From Fulvimarina sp. (GTDB lineage Bacteria; Pseudomonadota; Alphaproteobacteria; Rhizobiales; Rhizobiaceae), in assembly GCA_002700095.1 (NCBI GenBank), contig PACL01000056.1, forward strand, positions 1 to 64,000: a DNA stretch of 64,000 nt, given 5' to 3'. The notes under the pieces are model-generated. The model was not told the origin of the DNA and ran no database searches. It worked only from the letters and a program-made list of their open reading frames with translations. Position numbers and translations under genes: made by a program. Positions within the stretch are counted from its first letter, which is position 1. Each line of letters opens with the position of its first letter. This document shows positions 19,766 to 28,710 of this stretch, piece after piece.

Positions 19766-21169
19766 ATGATGTCCATCAGTCCCGCCAGCCTGCCAGCCTT
19801 GCGGGAGCCGCCGGACACGGCGATCGCCAATGCTGGTCTCAGCGACGAACTGACGAAATCGGCCGTACTCGTCGTCGACGACGAGCCGGGCATGCGGAAC
19901 TTCCTGTCCAAGATTCTCGCCGCGAACTGCGCCCGGGTGGACGTCACCGCGGACACGCGCGACGCCTCGCGGCTCCTCGACGAAAACGCCTATGACGTGA
20001 TCATCCTCGACAACATCATGCCCGACAAGACCGGGCTAGAATGGCTGGCCGAGCAACGCAGGATCGGCCTCTTCAGCGACGCGATCATGATCACCGCCCA
20101 TGCCGATCTGGACACGGCGATCCAGGCCATTCGCGCCGGCGCCAGCGACTTCCTTTTGAAGCCGTTCCGCTCCAACCAAGTCCTGAACGCCATTGCCCGC
20201 AGTCTCGAACGCTCCCGCCTGCGCCGCCAGAACTCGGTGCTGCGTCACGAACTCGAGGTCGGCAAGGACATCCTGAAGCATCGGGATGCGCTTTTGGGGA
20301 CGTCGGTCGAGATCCAGAAGGCCCGGCAGGCGATCGAACAGGCCGCCCTGTCCCATGCCAACGTCGTGTTTCGCGGCGAGGTCGGCTCGGGCAAGCAGGT
20401 CGCCGCGCGCATGCTGCACGCCGCCTCGCCCCGGGCCGCCAACCCGTTCGTCTGGCTGCAATGCTACGGCATGACCGAACAGGCCTTCCAGGAACGCCTG
20501 TTCGGGCATCTCGGCGCGCCGGCCGACGGGCCTTCTTCGCAGCAGGAGGGCATTCTCCTCAGCGCGGCGGGGGGTACCCTCTATCTCGAAGACGTCGAGA
20601 TGCTGTCGGCGGGTTGCCAGAACATTCTCGCCGAGCTCGTCAGCACCGGTCGCTTCAGCCCGCTCGGGGCGCGCCGCAGTCTGGAATTCGACCTGCGGAT
20701 CATCAGCTCCACGACACGTCCGCTCCAGGACATCGCCGCCGAGCGGATGTTCCGCACGGACCTCTTCTATCTCCTGACCGTCGTCGAGATCCTGTTGCCG
20801 CCGCTGCGGCAGCGGACGGCCGACATCATGGAGCTGACGCGTTTCTTCTCCGAAAGGCTGTCGCAGCGCATGGGAACCGGCGTTCCCGCCTTTTCGCCGG
20901 CGGCGCGCCGGCGGTTCCTCTCCCATGACTGGCCGGGCAACGTCATGGAGCTGCGCAACACGGTCGAGCGTGCCCTCATCCACGGCGACTTCGAGGCGGC
21001 TCTCGGCAGTGCCGCCACAAGGATCGAGATCGAGGACCTCGCCGCCGTCGAACGGCGCCACATCCTCGCCGTCCTCGACGCCTGCGACGGCAATCGCGCC
21101 GAGGCGGCGCGCCGCTTGGGCGTCGCCCGCAAGACCATCGACCGGAAATGCCACGCCTGGGGGCTGTGA
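19766..21169 (+). CDS. NtrC-family response regulator lacking the GAFTGA loop
   Basis: Regulator of 467 residues: receiver with Asp82 (IILDNIMPDKTG) and Lys in FLLKPFR, an AAA+ domain and a Fis-type C-terminal helix-turn-helix (NRAEAARRLGVARKTIDRK). Walker A is altered to GEVGSGKQ and the Walker B region reads GGTLYLEDVE instead of GGTLFLDE. After ERLFGH, where sigma-54 activators have GAFTGA, the sequence is LGAPADGPSSQQEG, so the sigma-54 contact loop is missing. It should therefore act as a repressor or sigma-70-type regulator. It is followed after 4 nt by a sensor kinase gene, and both precede the ABC transporter they probably control. Confidence 0.88.
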   Translation: MMSISPASLPALREPPDTAIANAGLSDELTKSAVLVVDDEPGMRNFLSKILAANCARVDVTADTRDASRLLDENAYDVIILDNIMPDKTGLEWLAEQRRIGLFSDAIMITAHADLDTAIQAIRAGASDFLLKPFRSNQVLNAIARSLERSRLRRQNSVLRHELEVGKDILKHRDALLGTSVEIQKARQAIEQAALSHANVVFRGEVGSGKQVAARMLHAASPRAANPFVWLQCYGMTEQAFQERLFGHLGAPADGPSSQQEGILLSAAGGTLYLEDVEMLSAGCQNILAELVSTGRFSPLGARRSLEFDLRIISSTTRPLQDIAAERMFRTDLFYLLTVVEILLPPLRQRTADIMELTRFFSERLSQRMGTGVPAFSPAARRRFLSHDWPGNVMELRNTVERALIHGDFEAALGSAATRIEIEDLAAVERRHILAVLDACDGNRAEAARRLGVARKTIDRKCHAWGL

Positions 21170-21173
21170 CCCG

Positions 21174-23123
21174 ATGCACTCGGTGCGGCTGCAGCTGCTC
21201 GCCATCGCTCTCCTGCCGCTGATCGTCCTGCTACCCTTGCTGCTCGGCGTGACGATGCTGCGCTGGATCAACAAGTACGACGACCTTCTGATCGCCAAGG
21301 TGGGCAGCGACCTGCGTGTGGCCGAGCAGTATTTCGGCCGGATCTCCGCCACGCTGGCCGCCGAGGTGGCGGCGGTGGCCCAGTCGGTGGATTTTTTCGA
21401 AGCGAAGTCGCACGGCGAGTTCGCTCTGGAGCAGTTCGTCGAGCGCAGGCGCACAGCCCTCGGGCTCGATTTCCTGGTCTGGGGCACCGTGACCGACACC
21501 GGCCTGCCCCGGGCGGCCCGCGAAGTCGCCCTCGCCGCAACTCCCAACGCTCCGAGCGCGGAGCTGGTGCTCCTCGGCGCCGCGGAGATGTCGGCGATTT
21601 CGCCCTCTCTCGGCGAGCGGGCGGCAATCCCGCTGGTGCCGACCGAGGCGGCGCGGCCGATCGCCCGCGACGTGGAAAGCCGGGGCATGTTCATCCTGGC
21701 GGCGCACCGCTCCGCCGACAGCGGCGAAATGTTGATCGGCGGCCGGCTCCTGAACCGCAATCTCGACGTCATCGACACGATGAACGCCCTCGTCTACCGC
21801 GACGAGGCGGGGCAGGTCTCGCGCACCGGAACGACGACGCTGTTCCTCGAGGACGTGCGGATCTCCACCAATGTCCGGCTGTTCGAGGGGTCCCGCGCGC
21901 TCGGCACGCGGGTTTCCGAGGCCGTCTGGCGGCGGGGGATGGAGGACGGTGAGACGTGGCTCGACCGCGCCTTCGTCGTCAACGACTGGTATATCTCCGG
22001 CTACGTTCCCCTCGCCGACATTTCCGGCAACCGGATCGGCATGCTCTACACCGGGTTTCTCGAGGCGCCGTTCACCGCTCAGCGGAACGCGACGATCCTG
22101 ACGCTCATCCTCGCCTTCGTCGCGGTGATCGGGCTGTCGGTGCCTTTGTTCCTGTGGCTTGCCAGGGGCATCTTCGCGCCTCTGGAAAAGATGACGGCCA
22201 CGATGGCGCATGTGGAGGCCGGGGCCTTCGACGCACGGATCGGCGCCGTCTCCGGCAACGACGAGATCGGCGCCGTCGCCCGCCATCTCGACCGCCTGCT
22301 CGACCAGGTGGAGGAGCGCGACGCCGCGCTGCGCGACTATGCCAACAACCTCAACGAACTCGTCGAGCGGCGCACCGACGAGCTGAAGGAGGCCAATCGC
22401 AAGCTGGAGACGACCTTCGCGCAACTGGTCATGTCCGAGAAGCTCGCCTCGGTCGGCGAGATCACCGCAGGTGTCGCCCACGAGATCAACAATCCCGTCG
22501 CAATCATCCAGGGCAACCTCGAAGTCATCCGCATGGGGCTTTCGCCCGAGCAGAGGGCGGAGCTGAAGAGCGAACTGGATTTCATCGACACCCAGACGCA
22601 TCGCATCAACATCATCGTCGGCAAGCTCCTGAACTTCACCCGGCCCGACGAGATGTCCGACGCGATCTCCCGGGTGGACGCCGCCCGGGCCGTCGACGAC
22701 GCGCTGATCCTGGTCGCGCCGGATCTGCGCAAGCACGCGATCGAGACGCGGGTGGAGCACAGCCCGAGCCCGAGCTTCAGGGTCGTCGAGACCGAGCTGC
22801 AGCAGGTGGTGGTCAACCTCGCCATCAACGCCGCGCAGGCGATGGGCGCAGGAGGAACGCTGACGATCCGGACGCGGCCGGCCACGCGCGAGAATATTTC
22901 CGGTTGCGAGATCGTCGTCGAGGACACCGGTCCCGGCATTCCGCCGGACAGGATCGACAACGTCTTCGACCCCTTCATGACGACCAAGATCGGCACGGGA
23001 TCGGGATTGGGCCTGTCGATCAGCCAGGCGCTGGTGACACGCGCAGGAGGGTTGATCAGCGTCCGCAGCGCCCCCGGCGAGGGAGCCACCTTCACAGTGT
23101 GGTTTCCGGCCTCGGACATTTAG
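21174..23123 (+). CDS. Cache-type sensor histidine kinase
   Basis: Membrane sensor kinase of 649 residues. A first helix (residues 9-29) is followed by a large periplasmic Cache-like sensor (about 35-300), a second helix near 305-325, HAMP, a coiled-coil segment (ELKEANRKLETTFAQL), HisKA with the phospho-acceptor in VAHEINNPVAIIQGN, and an ATPase domain with NLAINAAQAM, DTGPGIPP and GSGLGLSIS. The HEINNP box is typical of NtrB/DctB-like kinases that sense extracellular nutrients. It begins 4 nt after the regulator gene. Its stop codon TAG lies inside the first of three 42-bp-spaced repeats. Confidence 0.92.
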   Translation: MHSVRLQLLAIALLPLIVLLPLLLGVTMLRWINKYDDLLIAKVGSDLRVAEQYFGRISATLAAEVAAVAQSVDFFEAKSHGEFALEQFVERRRTALGLDFLVWGTVTDTGLPRAAREVALAATPNAPSAELVLLGAAEMSAISPSLGERAAIPLVPTEAARPIARDVESRGMFILAAHRSADSGEMLIGGRLLNRNLDVIDTMNALVYRDEAGQVSRTGTTTLFLEDVRISTNVRLFEGSRALGTRVSEAVWRRGMEDGETWLDRAFVVNDWYISGYVPLADISGNRIGMLYTGFLEAPFTAQRNATILTLILAFVAVIGLSVPLFLWLARGIFAPLEKMTATMAHVEAGAFDARIGAVSGNDEIGAVARHLDRLLDQVEERDAALRDYANNLNELVERRTDELKEANRKLETTFAQLVMSEKLASVGEITAGVAHEINNPVAIIQGNLEVIRMGLSPEQRAELKSELDFIDTQTHRINIIVGKLLNFTRPDEMSDAISRVDAARAVDDALILVAPDLRKHAIETRVEHSPSPSFRVVETELQQVVVNLAINAAQAMGAGGTLTIRTRPATRENISGCEIVVEDTGPGIPPDRIDNVFDPFMTTKIGTGSGLGLSISQALVTRAGGLISVRSAPGEGATFTVWFPASDI

Positions 23124-23209
23124 TCCGGCGAGGGACGGAATCGCGCGAAGGAGGTGGACATTTTGTCTCGGGCTAGAGAGAGATCTTATAGGACCGTCGA
23201 CATTCTGTC
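23115..23209. promoter_or_regulatory. Three GACATTYWGTC boxes at exact 42-bp spacing
   Basis: GACATTTAGTC at 23115-23125, GACATTTTGTC at 23157-23167 and GACATTCTGTC at 23199-23209. Start-to-start distances are 42 and 42 bp, four helical turns, so all three face the same side of the DNA. Boxes 2 and 3 are perfect inverted repeats GACA-N3-TGTC; box 1 has a mismatch in the inner arm but gains CGGAC/GTCCG symmetry. Box 1 overlaps the end of the kinase gene. The array lies some 400-500 bp upstream of the binding-protein gene, so the adjacent NtrC-like regulator is the obvious candidate binder. Confidence 0.75.
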
Positions 23210-23609
23210 CTTCAGCGAACTTGCATAATACCCCCAATGCTTTGATTTAAAAGATTAAATAGTTGACAGGTTGCAAGCTTCAATCCTAGCAATACTCCTC
23301 AGTTACGTATGGGAGGCCGGTGCCGCCCGATCGGGCGAACCGCGAGATGGGGGGATTTGAGCCGAACCTTTCCGGCAGCGACGTCGCGCGTGACGGGCCG
23401 CCCCCGAGCAGCCTCGTTCGTGACGGGAGCCGGGTCTTGCAGGCGACCGGATGATCCCTCCGGGCCATGAGCGACATCGGATGCGCGACACCGCCGCATC
23501 CAGTGACGCAAGCAGATCGACCGCCCGGCGAAGCCCGGACCGGACCGCAATGGTCGCACCGAGCAACGCGTACCGATCAAGAAAAAAGAAGCCAAAGGGA
23601 GGAAATGGA
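23124..23609. other. Regulatory intergenic region upstream of the ABC operon
   Basis: A 486-bp region with no recognisable gene. Its first part carries boxes 2 and 3 of the 42-bp array, then an AT-rich island (about 23221-23300, with GATTTAAAAGATTAAATAG) standing out from the GC-rich surroundings, and a -35-like TTGACA. The remaining 300 bp are GC-rich leader with two copies of CGTGACGGG 30 bp apart (23389 and 23419). A long 5' leader is implied if transcription starts near 23300. Confidence 0.6.
23263..23292 (+). promoter_or_regulatory. Candidate sigma-70 promoter of the ABC transporter operon
   Basis: TTGACA at 23263-23268 is a perfect -35 hexamer. The best -10 is TAGCAA at 23287-23292 after an 18-bp spacer, which is a poor match. 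It lies just downstream of the three-box array and within the AT-rich island. Confidence 0.35.
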
Positions 23610-24941
23610 ATGTTCCGGAGACACATGCATCTCGCGGCAGCTGCCGTCGCCTTGGCGGCAGTATCGGCCACCGCAATACCCGCATCTGCGCAGGAAACGC
23701 AGTATTTCCCCGTGGCCAGCAGCCGGGTCGGCCCGTATTCCGCCATGGGCACCGGCTATTACGGTGCGCAGATCGACTACATGAACTACGTCAACATGAA
23801 CGGCGGCGTGAACGGCGTCATGCTGACCTGGCAGGAGTGCGAGACCGAGTACAACGCGGTCAAGACCGTCGAGTGCTACCAGCGCCTCCTGGAAAAGGAC
23901 GGCCAGCGGATCGTCGTGTTCGACACGCTCGGAACGCCCGGCGCCTATGCCGTGATCAACCGGATGGCCGAGGACAACGTCGTTCTCGCCCAATATGGCT
24001 ACGGCAGGACCGACGCGGCGGATGGGCGGGTCTGGCCGTGGGTCTTCAATGCCGCCAGTCACTACTGGTCGCAGATCGCCGTCAAGATGAAGTTCATGGC
24101 CGAGCAGGAAGGCGGCGTCGAGAACATGAGGGGCAAGAAGATCGTGCACCTTCACATCGACTCGGCCTATGGGCGCGAACCGCTGCCCGCCATGCGCAAG
24201 ATCGCCGAGGACTGGGGCGTCACCCTGGTCGAGATCTCGGTGCCGCCGCCGGGCCTCGAACAGCAGTCGCAATGGCTGCAGATCCGCCGCGAACGGCCCG
24301 ACTGGGTGACGTTCTGGGGTGCCGGCTCGGGCATGAATTCGACCGCGATGACCAATGCGGCGCGCGTCGGCTTCCCCCGCAACCGCATGATGTACGTGAC
24401 CTTCGGCGCGGCCGAGGAAGACATGTTCCCCGCCGGCGACGCAGCGCTCGGCACCTACGCCATGGCCAATGCCCTCCCCGGCCAGGACTATCCGCTGGTC
24501 AAGGCGATCAAGGAACAGGTGTACGGCGCCGGCAAGGGCAATTTGTCGGACCAGAGCCGCATCGGGTCGGTCTACTGGAACCGCGGCCTCGGCGCGGCGG
24601 TGATGTGGGTCGAGGCGCTGAAGAACGCCCAGGAGATGCACGGCAAGGTCGGCAAGGCCGTGACCGGACCGGAATTTCGAGACGGCTACGAGGCGCTGAA
24701 CATGACCGAGGAGCGCCTCGAGGAAATCGGCATCAAGGGGATGATCGCGCCCTTCGCCATCTCGTGTGAAAACCACGAAGGCGCCGGCAAGTTCGCCGTG
24801 ATGCAGTGGAATGGCGAGAAGTTCGAGCAGATCACCGGTTGGGAGGCTCCTCTCGACCCCGGCTACATCCGCCAGCTGGTGGAAGAGTCCGCCGCCAAGT
24901 TCGCCAGCGAGAACAACATCACCCCCAAGAGCTGCTCCTGA
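23610..24941 (+). CDS. Branched-chain-type ABC transporter substrate-binding protein
   Basis: Periplasmic binding protein of 443 residues (LivJ/UrtA fold), with a Sec signal peptide ending IPASAQE near residue 25. It opens with a receptor-type strand (SRVGPYSAMGTGYYGAQID) and contains the family features MTWQECETEYNAVKTVE and HIDSAYGREPLPAM. GGGAGGAA lies 6 nt before the ATG. It is longer than LivJ, like members specific for aromatic or other larger solutes. Followed by two ATPase and two permease genes, forming a complete importer under the upstream two-component system. The ligand is unknown. Confidence 0.9.
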   Translation: MFRRHMHLAAAAVALAAVSATAIPASAQETQYFPVASSRVGPYSAMGTGYYGAQIDYMNYVNMNGGVNGVMLTWQECETEYNAVKTVECYQRLLEKDGQRIVVFDTLGTPGAYAVINRMAEDNVVLAQYGYGRTDAADGRVWPWVFNAASHYWSQIAVKMKFMAEQEGGVENMRGKKIVHLHIDSAYGREPLPAMRKIAEDWGVTLVEISVPPPGLEQQSQWLQIRRERPDWVTFWGAGSGMNSTAMTNAARVGFPRNRMMYVTFGAAEEDMFPAGDAALGTYAMANALPGQDYPLVKAIKEQVYGAGKGNLSDQSRIGSVYWNRGLGAAVMWVEALKNAQEMHGKVGKAVTGPEFRDGYEALNMTEERLEEIGIKGMIAPFAISCENHEGAGKFAVMQWNGEKFEQITGWEAPLDPGYIRQLVEESAAKFASENNITPKSCS

Positions 24942-25082
24942 CACGTCCTTTCGGGGATGAACCAGGCAACGCGGCGCCGAGGGCCCATGCGAGCGGGCCT
25001 TCGGCACCGCTTGACCGAAGCCGGCCGCCTGGCACCCCCCGCGCAAAAGGGGGCGCCGGACAACGCAGATGGCAGGAAAGCG

Positions 25083-25907
25083 ATGACCGCGAGCACGGAC
25101 AACATCCTGGAGATCGACGCGATCGAGGTCGTCTATGACGGCGTCATCGCCGCCGTACACGACGTGTCGCTGACGGTGCCGCGGGGCAAGATCGTGGCGC
25201 TTCTCGGCGGCAACGGCGCCGGCAAGAGCACCACCCTGAAGGCGATCTCGACGATGCTGGCCGCCGAACGCGGGATGGTCACCAAGGGTACGATCACCTA
25301 CGACGGCAAGCCGGTCAAGGATCAGGGTCCGGCCGACATGGTCCGCCTCGGCATGGTTCAGGTGCTCGAAGGGCGGCGATGCTTCGCGCATCTGACCGTC
25401 GAGGAAAACATCATTGCGGGGGCGTACTCACGCAAGCTCTCCAAGGCCGAGATCCGCAACGAACTCGAGAAGATCTACACCTATTTCAAGCGCCTGAGAG
25501 AGCGCCGCAAGAGCCAGGCCGGCTTCACGTCGGGGGGCGAGCAGCAGATGGTCGCCGTCGCCCGCGCGATGATGGCCAAGCCCAAGATGCTGCTCCTCGA
25601 CGAGCCGTCGATGGGCCTTGCACCGCAGCTGGTCGCCGAGATCTTCAACATCGTCAACACGCTCAACCAGAAGGAGGGCGTGAGCATCCTGCTCGCCGAG
25701 CAGAACACCAACGTCGCGCTGCGCAACGCCGATTACGGATACATCATCGAGACCGGGCACGTGATGCTGCACGGGACGGCCCAGAGCCTCCTCAACGACG
25801 AGAAGGTCAAGGATCTCTATCTCGGCGTCTCCAAGGAAGGCCGGAAGAATTTTCGCGACGTCCTGAGAAGAGAAAGCGCCGTCCACCCCGATTTTCATCA
25901 AGCCTAG
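25083..25907 (+). CDS. ABC transporter ATP-binding protein (LivF-type)
   Basis: ATPase of 274 residues for the branched-chain-type importer. Walker A GGNGAGKST, signature TSGGEQQMVAVARAMM (Thr in place of the usual Leu), Walker B KMLLLDEPSMGLAP, and the LivF-like Q-loop region MVQVLEGRRCFAHLTVEEN. It is about 35 residues longer than typical LivF, with a basic tail (GRKNFRDVLRRES). The ATG at 25083 begins just before the nucleotide-binding fold. 141 nt separate it from the binding-protein gene. Confidence 0.92.
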   Translation: MTASTDNILEIDAIEVVYDGVIAAVHDVSLTVPRGKIVALLGGNGAGKSTTLKAISTMLAAERGMVTKGTITYDGKPVKDQGPADMVRLGMVQVLEGRRCFAHLTVEENIIAGAYSRKLSKAEIRNELEKIYTYFKRLRERRKSQAGFTSGGEQQMVAVARAMMAKPKMLLLDEPSMGLAPQLVAEIFNIVNTLNQKEGVSILLAEQNTNVALRNADYGYIIETGHVMLHGTAQSLLNDEKVKDLYLGVSKEGRKNFRDVLRRESAVHPDFHQA

Positions 25908-25941
25908 ACCGTCGCGCAATCAGGAAAAGAGACCGAAGGAC

Positions 25942-26739
25942 ATGGTTGAGGCCAGACGCTTTCCGATTGGCGAGCCCATCCTGGAAGTGAAGAACATCTC
26001 GCTGCGCTTTGGCGGCGTGCGGGCGATCACCGATACGTCCTTCAACGTCTTCCGGCACGAGATCCGGGCGATCATCGGCCCCAACGGCGCCGGCAAGAGC
26101 TCGCTGCTCAACTGCATCAACGGGATTTACAAGCCGCAGGAAGGCACGATCGCCCTGAACGGCGAGGTGCTCGACAAGATCAGCCCGAACATCGTCGCGC
26201 GGAAAGGCCTCTCCCGCACGTTCCAGAACCTCGCCTTGTTCAAGCGCATGTCGGTCCTCGACAACATCCTCGTCGGTCGCAAGCTGCACATGTCGGCCAA
26301 TTTCCTCGAGGTCGCCTTCCGGCTGCCCAAGGCCGTGCACGAGGAGCGGGAAAACCGCGCCAAGTGCGAGGAGATCGTCGAGTTTCTCGAGATCAGCCAC
26401 ATCCGCGACACACCGGTCGGGCGGCTTCCCTACGGCCTGCAGAAGAAGGTCGAACTCGGCCGGGCGCTCGCCACCGAGGCCGACATCCTCCTTCTTGACG
26501 AGCCCATGGCGGGCATGAATGTCGAGGAGAAGCGCGACATGTGCCGGTTCATCCTCAAGGTCAACGACGCGTTCGGCACGACCATGGTGCTGATCGAGCA
26601 CGACATGGGGGTCGTCATGGACATTTCCGACAATGTCGTCGTGCTCGACTACGGCAAGGTCATCGGCGACGGACCGCCCGACGAGGTCCGGGCCGACCAG
26701 GCCGTGATCGACGCCTATCTCGGGGTGGCCCATGACTGA
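25942..26739 (+). CDS. ABC transporter ATP-binding protein (LivG-type)
   Basis: Second ATPase of the importer, 265 residues. Walker A GPNGAGKSS, LivG-like GLSRTFQNLALFKRMSVLDN, signature LPYGLQKKVELGRALA in the LSYG-type form found in LivG proteins, and Walker B ILLLDEPMAGMN. It is preceded by 34 nt and overlaps the first permease gene by 8 nt (26732-26739), so translation is coupled. Confidence 0.93.
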   Translation: MVEARRFPIGEPILEVKNISLRFGGVRAITDTSFNVFRHEIRAIIGPNGAGKSSLLNCINGIYKPQEGTIALNGEVLDKISPNIVARKGLSRTFQNLALFKRMSVLDNILVGRKLHMSANFLEVAFRLPKAVHEERENRAKCEEIVEFLEISHIRDTPVGRLPYGLQKKVELGRALATEADILLLDEPMAGMNVEEKRDMCRFILKVNDAFGTTMVLIEHDMGVVMDISDNVVVLDYGKVIGDGPPDEVRADQAVIDAYLGVAHD

Positions 26740-27634
26740 TTTCCTCTTCTTCATCGAAGTCGTGGTCGCCGGCCTGCTCGCGGGCACGATGTACTCGCTC
26801 GTCGCCCTCGGCTTCGTCCTGATCTACAAGGCCTCGTCGACGTTCAACTTCGCCCAGGGGGCGATGGTGTTCTTCGCCGTCCTTGCCTTTGTCGGCTTCA
26901 TGGAGCTGGGACTGCCATTCGTCGTGGCCTTCTTCGTCACCATCGTCCTGATGGGGCTGGTCGGGTTCTTCACCGAGCGGCTGGTCCTCAAACCGCTGAT
27001 GAACCAGAGCGAAGACACGCTGCTGATGGCGACCATCGGCCTCGGCTTCGTGCTGGAGGGCCTGGCACAGGCGGCCTGGGGGGTGGAAGTCCGGCGGCTC
27101 GACCTCGGCATCGGGGATTTCCCGATCCCTTGGATCATCGACAGCACCGGCCTTTTCATCAGCGCCCTCGATCTCACCGCCGGTCTCGTCGCCGCCGTTC
27201 TCATCATCGGTCTTGCACTGCTTTTCAAATATACCAAGATGGGGCTCGGCCTTCGCGCCGTCGCCGACGATCCGGGCGCGGCCAGCTCGATCGGCATTCC
27301 GCTCGGCAACATCATGCTGCTGGTCTGGACGGCGGCCGGGATCGTCGCGCTCGTCGCCGGCATGATGTGGGGCGCGCGCGCCGGCGTGCAGTTCGCGCTG
27401 GTCGACCTCGCCCTCAAGGCGCTTCCGGTGCTGATCATCGGCGGCTTCTCGTCGATCCCGGGCGCCATCGTCGGCGGCCTGATCATCGGGGCCTCCGAAA
27501 AGGTCCTGGAAGTCTATGTCGGGCCCTATTTCGGCGGCGCGATCGAGGGCTGGGCGCCTTACGTTCTGGCCATCTTCTTCCTGTTGTGGCGACCCGAAGG
27601 CCTGTTCGGCGAGAAGATCATCAGGCGCGTATAG
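26732..27634 (+). CDS. ABC transporter permease (LivH-type)
   Basis: Inner-membrane permease of 300 residues with about eight helices. The LivH signature appears as LVALGFVLIYKASSTFNFAQGAM near residue 25-45 and GLGLRAVADDPGAASSIGI in the cytoplasmic EAA-like loop. It pairs with the next gene to form the translocation pore. Confidence 0.92.
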   Translation: MTDFLFFIEVVVAGLLAGTMYSLVALGFVLIYKASSTFNFAQGAMVFFAVLAFVGFMELGLPFVVAFFVTIVLMGLVGFFTERLVLKPLMNQSEDTLLMATIGLGFVLEGLAQAAWGVEVRRLDLGIGDFPIPWIIDSTGLFISALDLTAGLVAAVLIIGLALLFKYTKMGLGLRAVADDPGAASSIGIPLGNIMLLVWTAAGIVALVAGMMWGARAGVQFALVDLALKALPVLIIGGFSSIPGAIVGGLIIGASEKVLEVYVGPYFGGAIEGWAPYVLAIFFLLWRPEGLFGEKIIRRV

Positions 27635-27645
27635 GATAGCGGCAC

Positions 27646-28710
27646 ATGAACTCGAACTTCCTCTTCATGGGTTACACGCGCAGCGACGTGATCAATCTCG
27701 TCGTCGTCCTGGCGGTGGCCCTGATCCTCATCCCGCTGACCATCGAGTCGGATTACTGGTACGCGTCGATCCTGATCCCCTGGCTCTGCCTCGCGCTCGC
27801 GGCGGTCGGGCAGCAGATCGTCATGGGCTATGCCGGCCAGCTGGCGCTCGGGGCTGCGGGCTTCATGGCGGCGGGCGCGTTTGCCTGCTTCAACCTGATC
27901 CTGCGCGTGCCCTACATGCCGTTTCCGGTGGCGCTGATGCTCTCGGGCCTGATCGCGGCGGCCTTCGGGGTCCTGTTCGGGCTGCCCAGCCTGCGGGTCC
28001 GAGGCATCTACCTCATGGTGGCGACGCTCGCCTCGCAGTTCTTCATCGTCTGGATGATCGACAAGTTCGGCTGGTTCAAGAACTACGACACCTCCGGCAT
28101 CATCACGGCGCAGGACATCGTGATCTTCGGCAAGCCCTTCACGACGCCGCTCGAGATGTATCTGGTCGTCGTCGTGGTTGTCGCGGTGCTGACGATCCTC
28201 GCCATCAACATGACGAGGGGCAGTACGGGGCGAAGCTGGATGGCCGTGCGCGACATGGACATCGCGGCGGAATCCATGGGCATCTCGCTCTTGCGCACCA
28301 AGCTCCAGGCCTTCGCCATCTCCGCCTTCTTCTGCGGCGTCGCCGGGGCGCTGTTCGCCTTCACCTATCTGAAGTCGCTCGAGCCGGTCGCCTTCGACAT
28401 CAAGCTCTCGTTCAAGATCCTGTTCATGGTCATTCTCGGCGGCCTCGGCACGATCAGCGGCGCTTTCATCGGCGCCGCCTTCATCCTTCTGTTCCCGGTC
28501 GTCCTGAACAGCCTCGGCAACAACGTCTTCCACGGCGCGATCGACGCCACCATCATTTCGGCCGCGGAACAGGTCGTGTTCGGCGCGCTGATCATCGTCT
28601 TCATGATCTACGAGCCGCTCGGCATGACCAAGCTGTGGGAGAACGTGAAGCAGCGCTTCCGCTTCAAGCGTGAGCCGAAGGCGACGCTTCCAAAGCCGCA
28701 GGTCACCTGA
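27646..28710 (+). CDS. ABC transporter permease (LivM-type)
   Basis: Second permease, 354 residues, with the LivM features QQIVMGYAGQLALGAAGFMA and AVRDMDIAAESMGISLLRTK. It starts 11 nt after the LivH-type gene. The C-terminus is basic (KQRFRFKREPKA). Last gene of the importer operon; a strong hairpin follows before the convergent DJ-1/PfpI gene. Confidence 0.92.
   Translation: MNSNFLFMGYTRSDVINLVVVLAVALILIPLTIESDYWYASILIPWLCLALAAVGQQIVMGYAGQLALGAAGFMAAGAFACFNLILRVPYMPFPVALMLSGLIAAAFGVLFGLPSLRVRGIYLMVATLASQFFIVWMIDKFGWFKNYDTSGIITAQDIVIFGKPFTTPLEMYLVVVVVVAVLTILAINMTRGSTGRSWMAVRDMDIAAESMGISLLRTKLQAFAISAFFCGVAGALFAFTYLKSLEPVAFDIKLSFKILFMVILGGLGTISGAFIGAAFILLFPVVLNSLGNNVFHGAIDATIISAAEQVVFGALIIVFMIYEPLGMTKLWENVKQRFRFKREPKATLPKPQVT

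Follow-up and report, generated by a model that had tools for sequence, protein, structure and literature searches.

An exact 42-bp array of inverted repeats behind a sensor kinase gene of Fulvimarina, and its probable reading by an NtrC-type regulator without GAFTGA

Three short inverted repeats, placed at exact four-turn steps behind a sensor histidine kinase gene, raise the question of which protein reads them and through which form of RNA polymerase it would act. They lie in a stretch of 64,000 nucleotides from Fulvimarina sp. (contig PACL01000056.1, positions 1 to 64,000; hereafter the window), between a two-component system of the NtrC type and the genes of an ATP-binding cassette (ABC) transporter of the LIV type. 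The answer favoured here, which we hold to be likely, is that these boxes, of the form GACA-N3-TGTC, are the operator of the adjacent regulator, which would bind them as phased dimers and activate the operon of a periplasmic binding protein and LivFGHM (SBP-LivFGHM) through a sigma70-type polymerase.

The box array and its conservation

The array consists of the following elements.

23115..23125, strand not assigned: box 1, GACATTTAGTC, one mismatch to GACA-N3-TGTC, holding the TAG stop codon of the kinase gene
23157..23167, strand not assigned: box 2, GACATTTTGTC, perfect GACA-N3-TGTC, 42 bp past box 1
23199..23209, strand not assigned: box 3, GACATTCTGTC, perfect GACA-N3-TGTC, 42 bp past box 2

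The box starts at 23115, 23157 and 23199 confirm the two steps of exactly 42 bp given in a preliminary description of the locus, and its view that such an arrangement is improbable by chance is borne out. An equal-step triple (step 12-60 bp) appeared in 1 of 300 dinucleotide shuffles of the window, which at up to one mismatch carries 26 GACA-N3-TGTC sites against 17.4 expected, a number reached in 0 of 100 shuffles. A search of the 5.6-Mb genome, which the same description had proposed, found the paired array to be unique: boxes 2 and 3 are the only perfect pair with a gap of 5-35 bp (control pattern, 0), and the top two of the 38 pairs at 42 bp with up to three mismatches (control, 9) are the array's own. 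Single perfect boxes number 103 in this genome (G000) versus 16 for the reversed control pattern, a surplus that may reflect either codon usage or the dispersed sites of another regulator. No second target was seen in the same genome, where a paralog from the major facilitator superfamily (MFS; G000:C15:42905, L085) has no box upstream and no further perfect box pair occurs, and an Rfam scan of 23050-23650 matched no structured-RNA family up to E 1. The array is very unlikely to be a product of chance, and the strongest evidence for this is its conservation in relatives.

Orthologous loci were collected by a kinase search, which hit 41 of the 297 genomes searched in the family, 45 of 397 in the order and 9 of 385 in the class, the window's own match being included at each rank and the sets overlapping. 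Named relatives were added, namely Aurantimonas sp. 22II-16-19i (taken as L006), Jiella pelagia, Phycocomes zhengii and metagenome-assembled genomes called Neomegalonema and Roseovarius. The resulting 95 loci comprise all family, order and class matches, with the window counted once, and four named loci; L100 was treated as the same genome as L006, and L105, a distant match of 25%, was excluded. Within 600 bp past the kinase, the distance by which a locus is here called transporter-adjacent, an MFS gene is present in 62 of the 95 loci, a binding protein gene in six (the window, L006 and four other named loci) and neither in 27, which include the contig-edge loci L118 (112 bases left) and L136 (0), while L077 has 802 bases. 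At up to one mismatch, a box is present near the kinase end in 68 of 68 transporter-adjacent loci versus 3 of the 27 others (L077, L121 and L122). The site had at first been tied to this ABC transporter group; it goes instead with the two-component system. A search for MFS genes in 16 genomes, moreover, gave matches in six, which, once the known locus L082 is set aside, leaves six genes in five genomes; five of these six separate MFS genes carry an upstream box pair, 41-43 bp or 23 bp apart, and the box therefore goes with the target promoter rather than the kinase end itself.

The spacing was examined by the alignment of orthologous loci that the preliminary description had called for, using 11 loci in which box 2 starts exactly 42 bp past box 1 (12 of the 19 loci whose regulator has lost the GAFTGA loop or cannot be read there, with the near-copy L006 dropped). 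Aligned without gaps on box 1, these loci have spacers that are 31% and 27% identical, yet the 42-bp step is kept. Counted on the eight positions of the palindrome, boxes 1, 2 and 3 are 91%, 98% and 46% identical, the values for boxes 1 and 2 being partly built in because the loci were picked for their first step. Box 3 was not used in that choice, and at +84 it shows a mean of 3.0 mismatches of 8, compared to 4.8 to 6.9 at other offsets; the mean at +83, where L099 and L030 have their box 3, is 5.2. With up to three mismatches of 8, box 3 is found at +84 or +83 in 10 of the 11 loci, with none in L103. Both the boxes and their spacing are thus kept in relatives, contrary to the first of the two conditions under which the preliminary description would have fallen.

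A joint constraint on box 1 and the coding end of the kinase, as was first suggested, is plausible. In the window, the single mismatch of box 1 creates the TAG stop, and in the window-type clade box 1 lies in frame at the kinase end, where it is read as DNLS, DILS, or DN/DI followed by a stop; 10 of the 11 clade loci compared have it in the kinase frame or at the stop. Overlap with the stop codon itself is confined to L005, L006, L101 and L102, the kinase stop lying further downstream than box 1 in the rest of the clade. At the eleventh, L055 (G560:C1:759620-761569), one in-frame TAG occurs near the end of the kinase match, and box 1 consequently sits behind a stop.

Regulator classes and the promoter region

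The two genes upstream of the array code for the two-component system.

19766..21169, + strand: NtrC-type response regulator, with a receiver domain, an AAA+ domain in which APADGP replaces GAFTGA and the Walker B motif reads LYLEDV, and a Fis-type helix-turn-helix (HTH); presumed binder of the boxes
21174..23123, + strand: sensor histidine kinase, with Cache_3, HAMP, HisKA and HATPase domains

The AAA+ domain of the regulator is still recognised as the sigma54-interaction domain PF00158 (129.5 bits), but its identity to regulators with GAFTGA is 35%, versus 79% within the GAFTGA class, while the receiver and HTH domains are 68% and 71% identical to that class. This is the pattern of a protein that would have retained sensing and DNA recognition while its sigma54 machine was released. 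The loop that stands in place of GAFTGA is APADGP in the window, and PQADGS, HYAQG, GAFPGA, GAFLGA and others in its clade. Of the 17 loci of the lost class, 14 have an altered Walker B and three an intact one, versus an intact DE in 51 of 51 of the GAFTGA class. Partial states also exist, in that three loci have a GAFPGA or GAFLGA-like loop with Walker B intact, whereas in the window type both are changed.

Among the transporter-adjacent loci, 49 keep GAFTGA (or GAFTSA or GAFTNA), and in 44 of these a sigma54 site reaches a score of 9 of 10 or more against TGGCAY-N5-TTGC, including L129, where the site is 253 bp from the last box. Of the five misses, L022, L024, L033 and L025 show TGGCAC or TGGCAT with an imperfect second half, and the fifth is L119. 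The first box spacing in this class is 19-24 bp in 36 loci, 42-45 bp in nine and 13 bp in three, with a single box in one. The 17 transporter-adjacent loci that have lost GAFTGA, to which the window's clade belongs, have no sigma54 site (0 of 17), and in 16 of them TTGAC occurs 60-150 bp past the kinase stop, compared to 3 of 49 in the GAFTGA class; for these contrasts Fisher's p is about 1e-11 to 2e-11, uncorrected for kinship. At least two boxes are present in 13 of the 17, at 42 bp (11 loci) or 43 bp (two), and one box at the threshold in four. The loop is unreadable in L057 (contig end) and L101 (broken frame), which were counted as unknown although they look like the lost class; with them TTGAC is present in 18 of 19, against a shuffle mean of 3.0 and a maximum of 9. 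The box consensus, GGACAWWWTGTCC, is the same in both classes (100 and 43 boxes). The best score in the window's own intergenic region is 7 of 10. Loss of RpoN was considered as a cause and rejected: of the 17 genomes examined, 15 encode Sigma54_DBD, among them that of the window, and since RpoN is present in this genome the change at GAFTGA was not forced by its absence. The two genomes without the domain are G181 (66% complete) and G699 (100% complete), the latter holding L111, a locus with GAFTGA lost and no box.

Some observations concern the regulator outside these classes. A further GAFTGA-lost branch, comprising L067, L070, L072, L073 and L135 (EATSET and like loops), has no boxes beside the kinase, and a search for the MFS gene in four of the genomes that hold these loci gave no match. 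In Jiella pelagia (L101), the regulator gene is in two pieces with 386 bases between them, a number not divisible by three, as would result from a broken frame or an assembly error.

Two further elements stand between the array and the transporter genes.

23235..23247, - strand: IHF-like site, CAATGCTTTGATT
23263..23268, + strand: TTGACA, presumed -35 element of a sigma70-type promoter, 64 bp past the start of box 3

The first is so labelled for its perfect fit to WATCAANNNNTTR, the consensus of integration host factor (IHF). The box starts are 64, 106 and 148 bp before TTGACA. In the four window-type loci with a detected box 3 (L005, L006, L104 and L099), TTGAC starts 64-65 bp past it; the distance is 44 bp in L061, L030 and the Leisingera locus L155, whose boxes are 43 and 43 bp apart, and 44 and 65 differ by two turns. 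Where no box 3 was detected, distances of 64-68 or 44 bp are obtained only by extrapolating the 42-bp steps. In the sigma54 loci, the TGG element starts 63-65 bp past the last box in 36 of 44. The IHF-like motif, at up to one mismatch, recurs 28-32 bp before TGG in the same orientation in 26 of 43 sigma54 loci, and 26-30 bp before TTGAC in 13 of 18 loci, with one more at 39 bp; shuffles gave 2.4 of 42 and 3.6 of 18, respectively. By these two marks, the distance to the boxes and the distance to the IHF-like motif, TTGAC therefore occupies approximately the place of the -24 element.

Proposed operation and alternative explanations

The steps of control proposed here, from binding and phosphorylation to the choice of sigma factor, are predictions from sequence. 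Each GGACAWWWTGTCC palindrome would take one dimer of the Fis-type HTH, and the step of 42 bp, or four turns, would set the dimers on one face of the DNA. A bend at the IHF-like site, between array and promoter, may hold them in register with RNA polymerase. The Cache-domain kinase would phosphorylate the regulator, which in this form would activate the SBP-LivFGHM operon (23610-28710), most likely through a sigma70-type polymerase at TTGACA and not by sigma54 remodelling. This type of activation is proposed because the regulator, apparently a descendant of sigma54 activators, has lost both GAFTGA and a normal Walker B, because TTGAC is present, and because R. capsulatus NtrC offers a precedent. 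The preliminary description had envisaged cooperative binding of an oligomeric, NtrC-like regulator; the part of that proposal which stands is a functional phased array with the adjacent regulator as the best candidate binder, while a standard NtrC-like sigma54 enhancer is unlikely, since GAFTGA is missing and no sigma54 promoter follows.

Such an enhancer, on which a regulator hexamer would remodel sigma54 polymerase, is nevertheless the arrangement seen in homologs of about 50% identity, which have GAFTGA, boxes and a sigma54 promoter together in 44 of 49 cases, and the genome does have RpoN. With APADGP in place of GAFTGA, LEDV in Walker B, a best intergenic score of 7 in the window and none of the 17 lost-class loci reaching 9, it is nonetheless very unlikely here. 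Alternatively, the binder could be a global regulator from the RegA/ActR/PrrA family, members of which can use sites with the same core. RegA also has a Fis-like HTH, and the over-representation of single perfect boxes is as dispersed sites would produce. Two R. capsulatus RegA motifs from chromatin immunoprecipitation are reported to contain GACAAAATGTC and GACAATTTGTC (PMC5359404). However, the boxes track the two-component system and its target across orders, they stand upstream of sigma54 promoters in most relatives, and the paired array is unique in the genome, and binding by RegA is judged unlikely.

The regulator might also silence genes through the array, as a repressor or by autoregulation. 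GAFTGA-less regulators can repress, as is reported of Caulobacter NtrC at some genes (PMC10274813), and box 1 overlaps the kinase end. Against this, all of the boxes lie well upstream of the presumed promoter, in the place of activator sites, and the layout of the homologous GAFTGA loci suggests that there they are upstream activating sites of sigma54 promoters, which leaves repression an improbable role. That the array is a decaying remnant of a former enhancer, or a chance arrangement, is scarcely credible: box 3 does decay in relatives and the AAA+ domain is diverging fast, yet the 42-bp step is kept between drifted spacers, box 3 still stands out at +84, and the receiver and HTH are conserved.

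Several results weigh against activation by the adjacent regulator through sigma70-type polymerase. Box 3 is degenerate in most relatives, as its 46% pairwise identity indicates, and spacing alone does not mark the class, since 42-45 bp is also found in 9 of 49 GAFTGA loci. The palindrome word is not specific to one protein family, RegA and M.SsoII using the same core. L109 and L133, two of the 27 loci counted without a transporter, have an MFS gene 1010 and 773 bp past the kinase but no box near it, and L082 lacks TTGAC. A strict scan of the window for TTGACA-N16-18-TATAAT gave no promoter, although the lack of a strict -35/-10 pair is common for activator-dependent promoters. Kinship is a further concern: the GAFTGA and lost states require four changes on the kinase tree, but only two independent contrasts fall among the transporter-adjacent loci, and one of them (L082) is a long branch of unsure place. 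The joint loss of GAFTGA and the sigma54 site is for this reason without formal significance, and kinship could carry much of it. The tree itself is of a quick kind, with some long rows including L082; L136 was omitted, and L055 was entered cut at its in-frame TAG.

An evolutionary extension of the favoured reading, for and against which the balance is about even, is that a sigma54 enhancer promoter was converted in place into an activator-dependent promoter of the sigma70 type. GAFTGA would have been lost, the boxes brought into exact steps of four turns, the IHF-like bend retained and TTGAC established as a -35 element at the -24 place, with a later exchange of an MFS for an ABC target in one branch while the control region was kept. 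The last step is suggested by the kinase tree, where all six loci with the ABC transporter fall on a single branch (SH-aLRT 99) inside the MFS-linked ones. Sigma54 polymerase is activated by ATP-driven remodelling and sigma70 polymerase by recruitment, which are physically different processes, and here one orthologous system apparently exists in either form, sharing the box, the IHF-like site and matching distances, with partial states as well. The question of how an enhancer-binding protein becomes an ordinary activator is thus directly testable in this system.

Known systems, target genes and the probable signal

Parts of this picture have precedents. In R. capsulatus, HupR acts at hupSL as an NtrC-family regulator together with IHF and a sigma70-type promoter, its operator sequence and target presumably being different from those of the window. 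The NtrC protein of the same species, without GAFTGA, reportedly works through sigma70, and the motif is missing from Caulobacter NtrC too (PMC10274813). These proteins resemble the window's regulator in being receiver-AAA+-HTH proteins of Alphaproteobacteria without GAFTGA; the window differs in that it represents another system with another operator, GGACAWWWTGTCC, in three sites at exact 42-bp steps, and in that its relatives still hold sigma54-type promoter loci. VpsR of Vibrio cholerae (7v2b) is described as a GAFTGA-less family member that acts on sigma70 promoters. At norVW of E. coli, three upstream sites are reported to scaffold a higher-order oligomer of NorR, which unlike the window's regulator has GAFTGA, uses sigma54 and senses through a GAF domain (PMC2941729). 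The regulatory site of M.SsoII, AGGACAAATTGTCCT, contains the same 13-bp palindrome, GGACAAATTGTCC, but is described as a single site bound by a DNA methyltransferase of a restriction-modification system (PMC3978073); no restriction-modification genes were seen directly beside the window array. The box letters also led to a plasmid oriT and, by title, to further work on this or a near-identical restriction-modification system. A close likeness is found in GAFTGA-intact orthologs such as the one on plasmid p2 of Shinella sp. H4-D48 (L152), with the same regulator-kinase pair and the same box directly 3' of the kinase; there, however, the boxes are 22 bp apart, GAFTGA and a sigma54 promoter are present, and the target is an MFS protein annotated as OFA family.

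Three-site arrays, as in NorR, and NtrC proteins without GAFTGA are therefore already known. Neither the operator of this family nor the exact 42-bp array nor the occurrence of sigma54 and converted promoter forms side by side was found described in the open-licence literature, mostly judged by title. For this widespread two-component system, which is linked to an MFS family and on Roseobacter plasmids also to formate dehydrogenase, the results predict an operator, and they suggest that annotation as a sigma-54 dependent regulator is wrong for part of the family.

The presumed target operon begins 400 bp past the array.

23610..24941, + strand: periplasmic binding protein (PF13458) of a LIV-type ABC transporter, presumably encoded by the first gene of the operon under control
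24957..25907, + strand: LivF-like ATPase, given by the bounds of its open reading frame, the true start of which may be further in
25942..26739, + strand: LivG-like ATPase
26732..27634, + strand: LivH-like permease
27646..28710, + strand: LivM-like permease

The four Liv-like products are below NCBIfam cut-offs, and the nearest solved relative of the binding protein, 4ru0, carries no firmer name than putative branched-chain amino acid binding protein. The signal of the system is probably formate or another small carboxylate of the lactate or oxalate kind, a proposal made because relatives appear to control an OFA-type MFS transporter or adjoin formate dehydrogenase. Annotations in Shinella, Leisingera and Methylorubrum place the MFS protein in the OFA family. 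For the MFS fragment of L055 (411 residues), the best solved structure is the L-lactate transporter 6g9x and the next the oxalate:formate antiporter 8hpj, although the fragment does not reach the NCBIfam cut-off of either the L-lactate or the oxalate/formate model.

On Roseobacter plasmids, the regulator ortholog ends the FDH3 formate dehydrogenase operon in all five such loci examined (L153, L154, L157, L158 and L159); the ten plasmid matches (H1, H2, H53, H61, H79, H80, H81, H86, H87 and H90, with H2 and H90 on one plasmid) were picked by eye, and no rate can be derived from them. In these regulators linked to formate dehydrogenase, GAFTGA is absent and Walker B intact. The fdh divergent regions of L160, L161, L162 and L164 each contain a putative, degenerate box pair (at most two mismatches per box) exactly 41 bp apart, 4 of 4 regions, all from related species; a fifth region runs over the record start. 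Kinase homologs without an adjacent regulator occur at L150, L151 and L162 on Roseobacter plasmids and, among the collected loci, at L058, L106 and L125. Sagittula stellata and Pseudosulfitobacter pseudonitzschiae have the kinase and regulator genes on one plasmid, at separate places.

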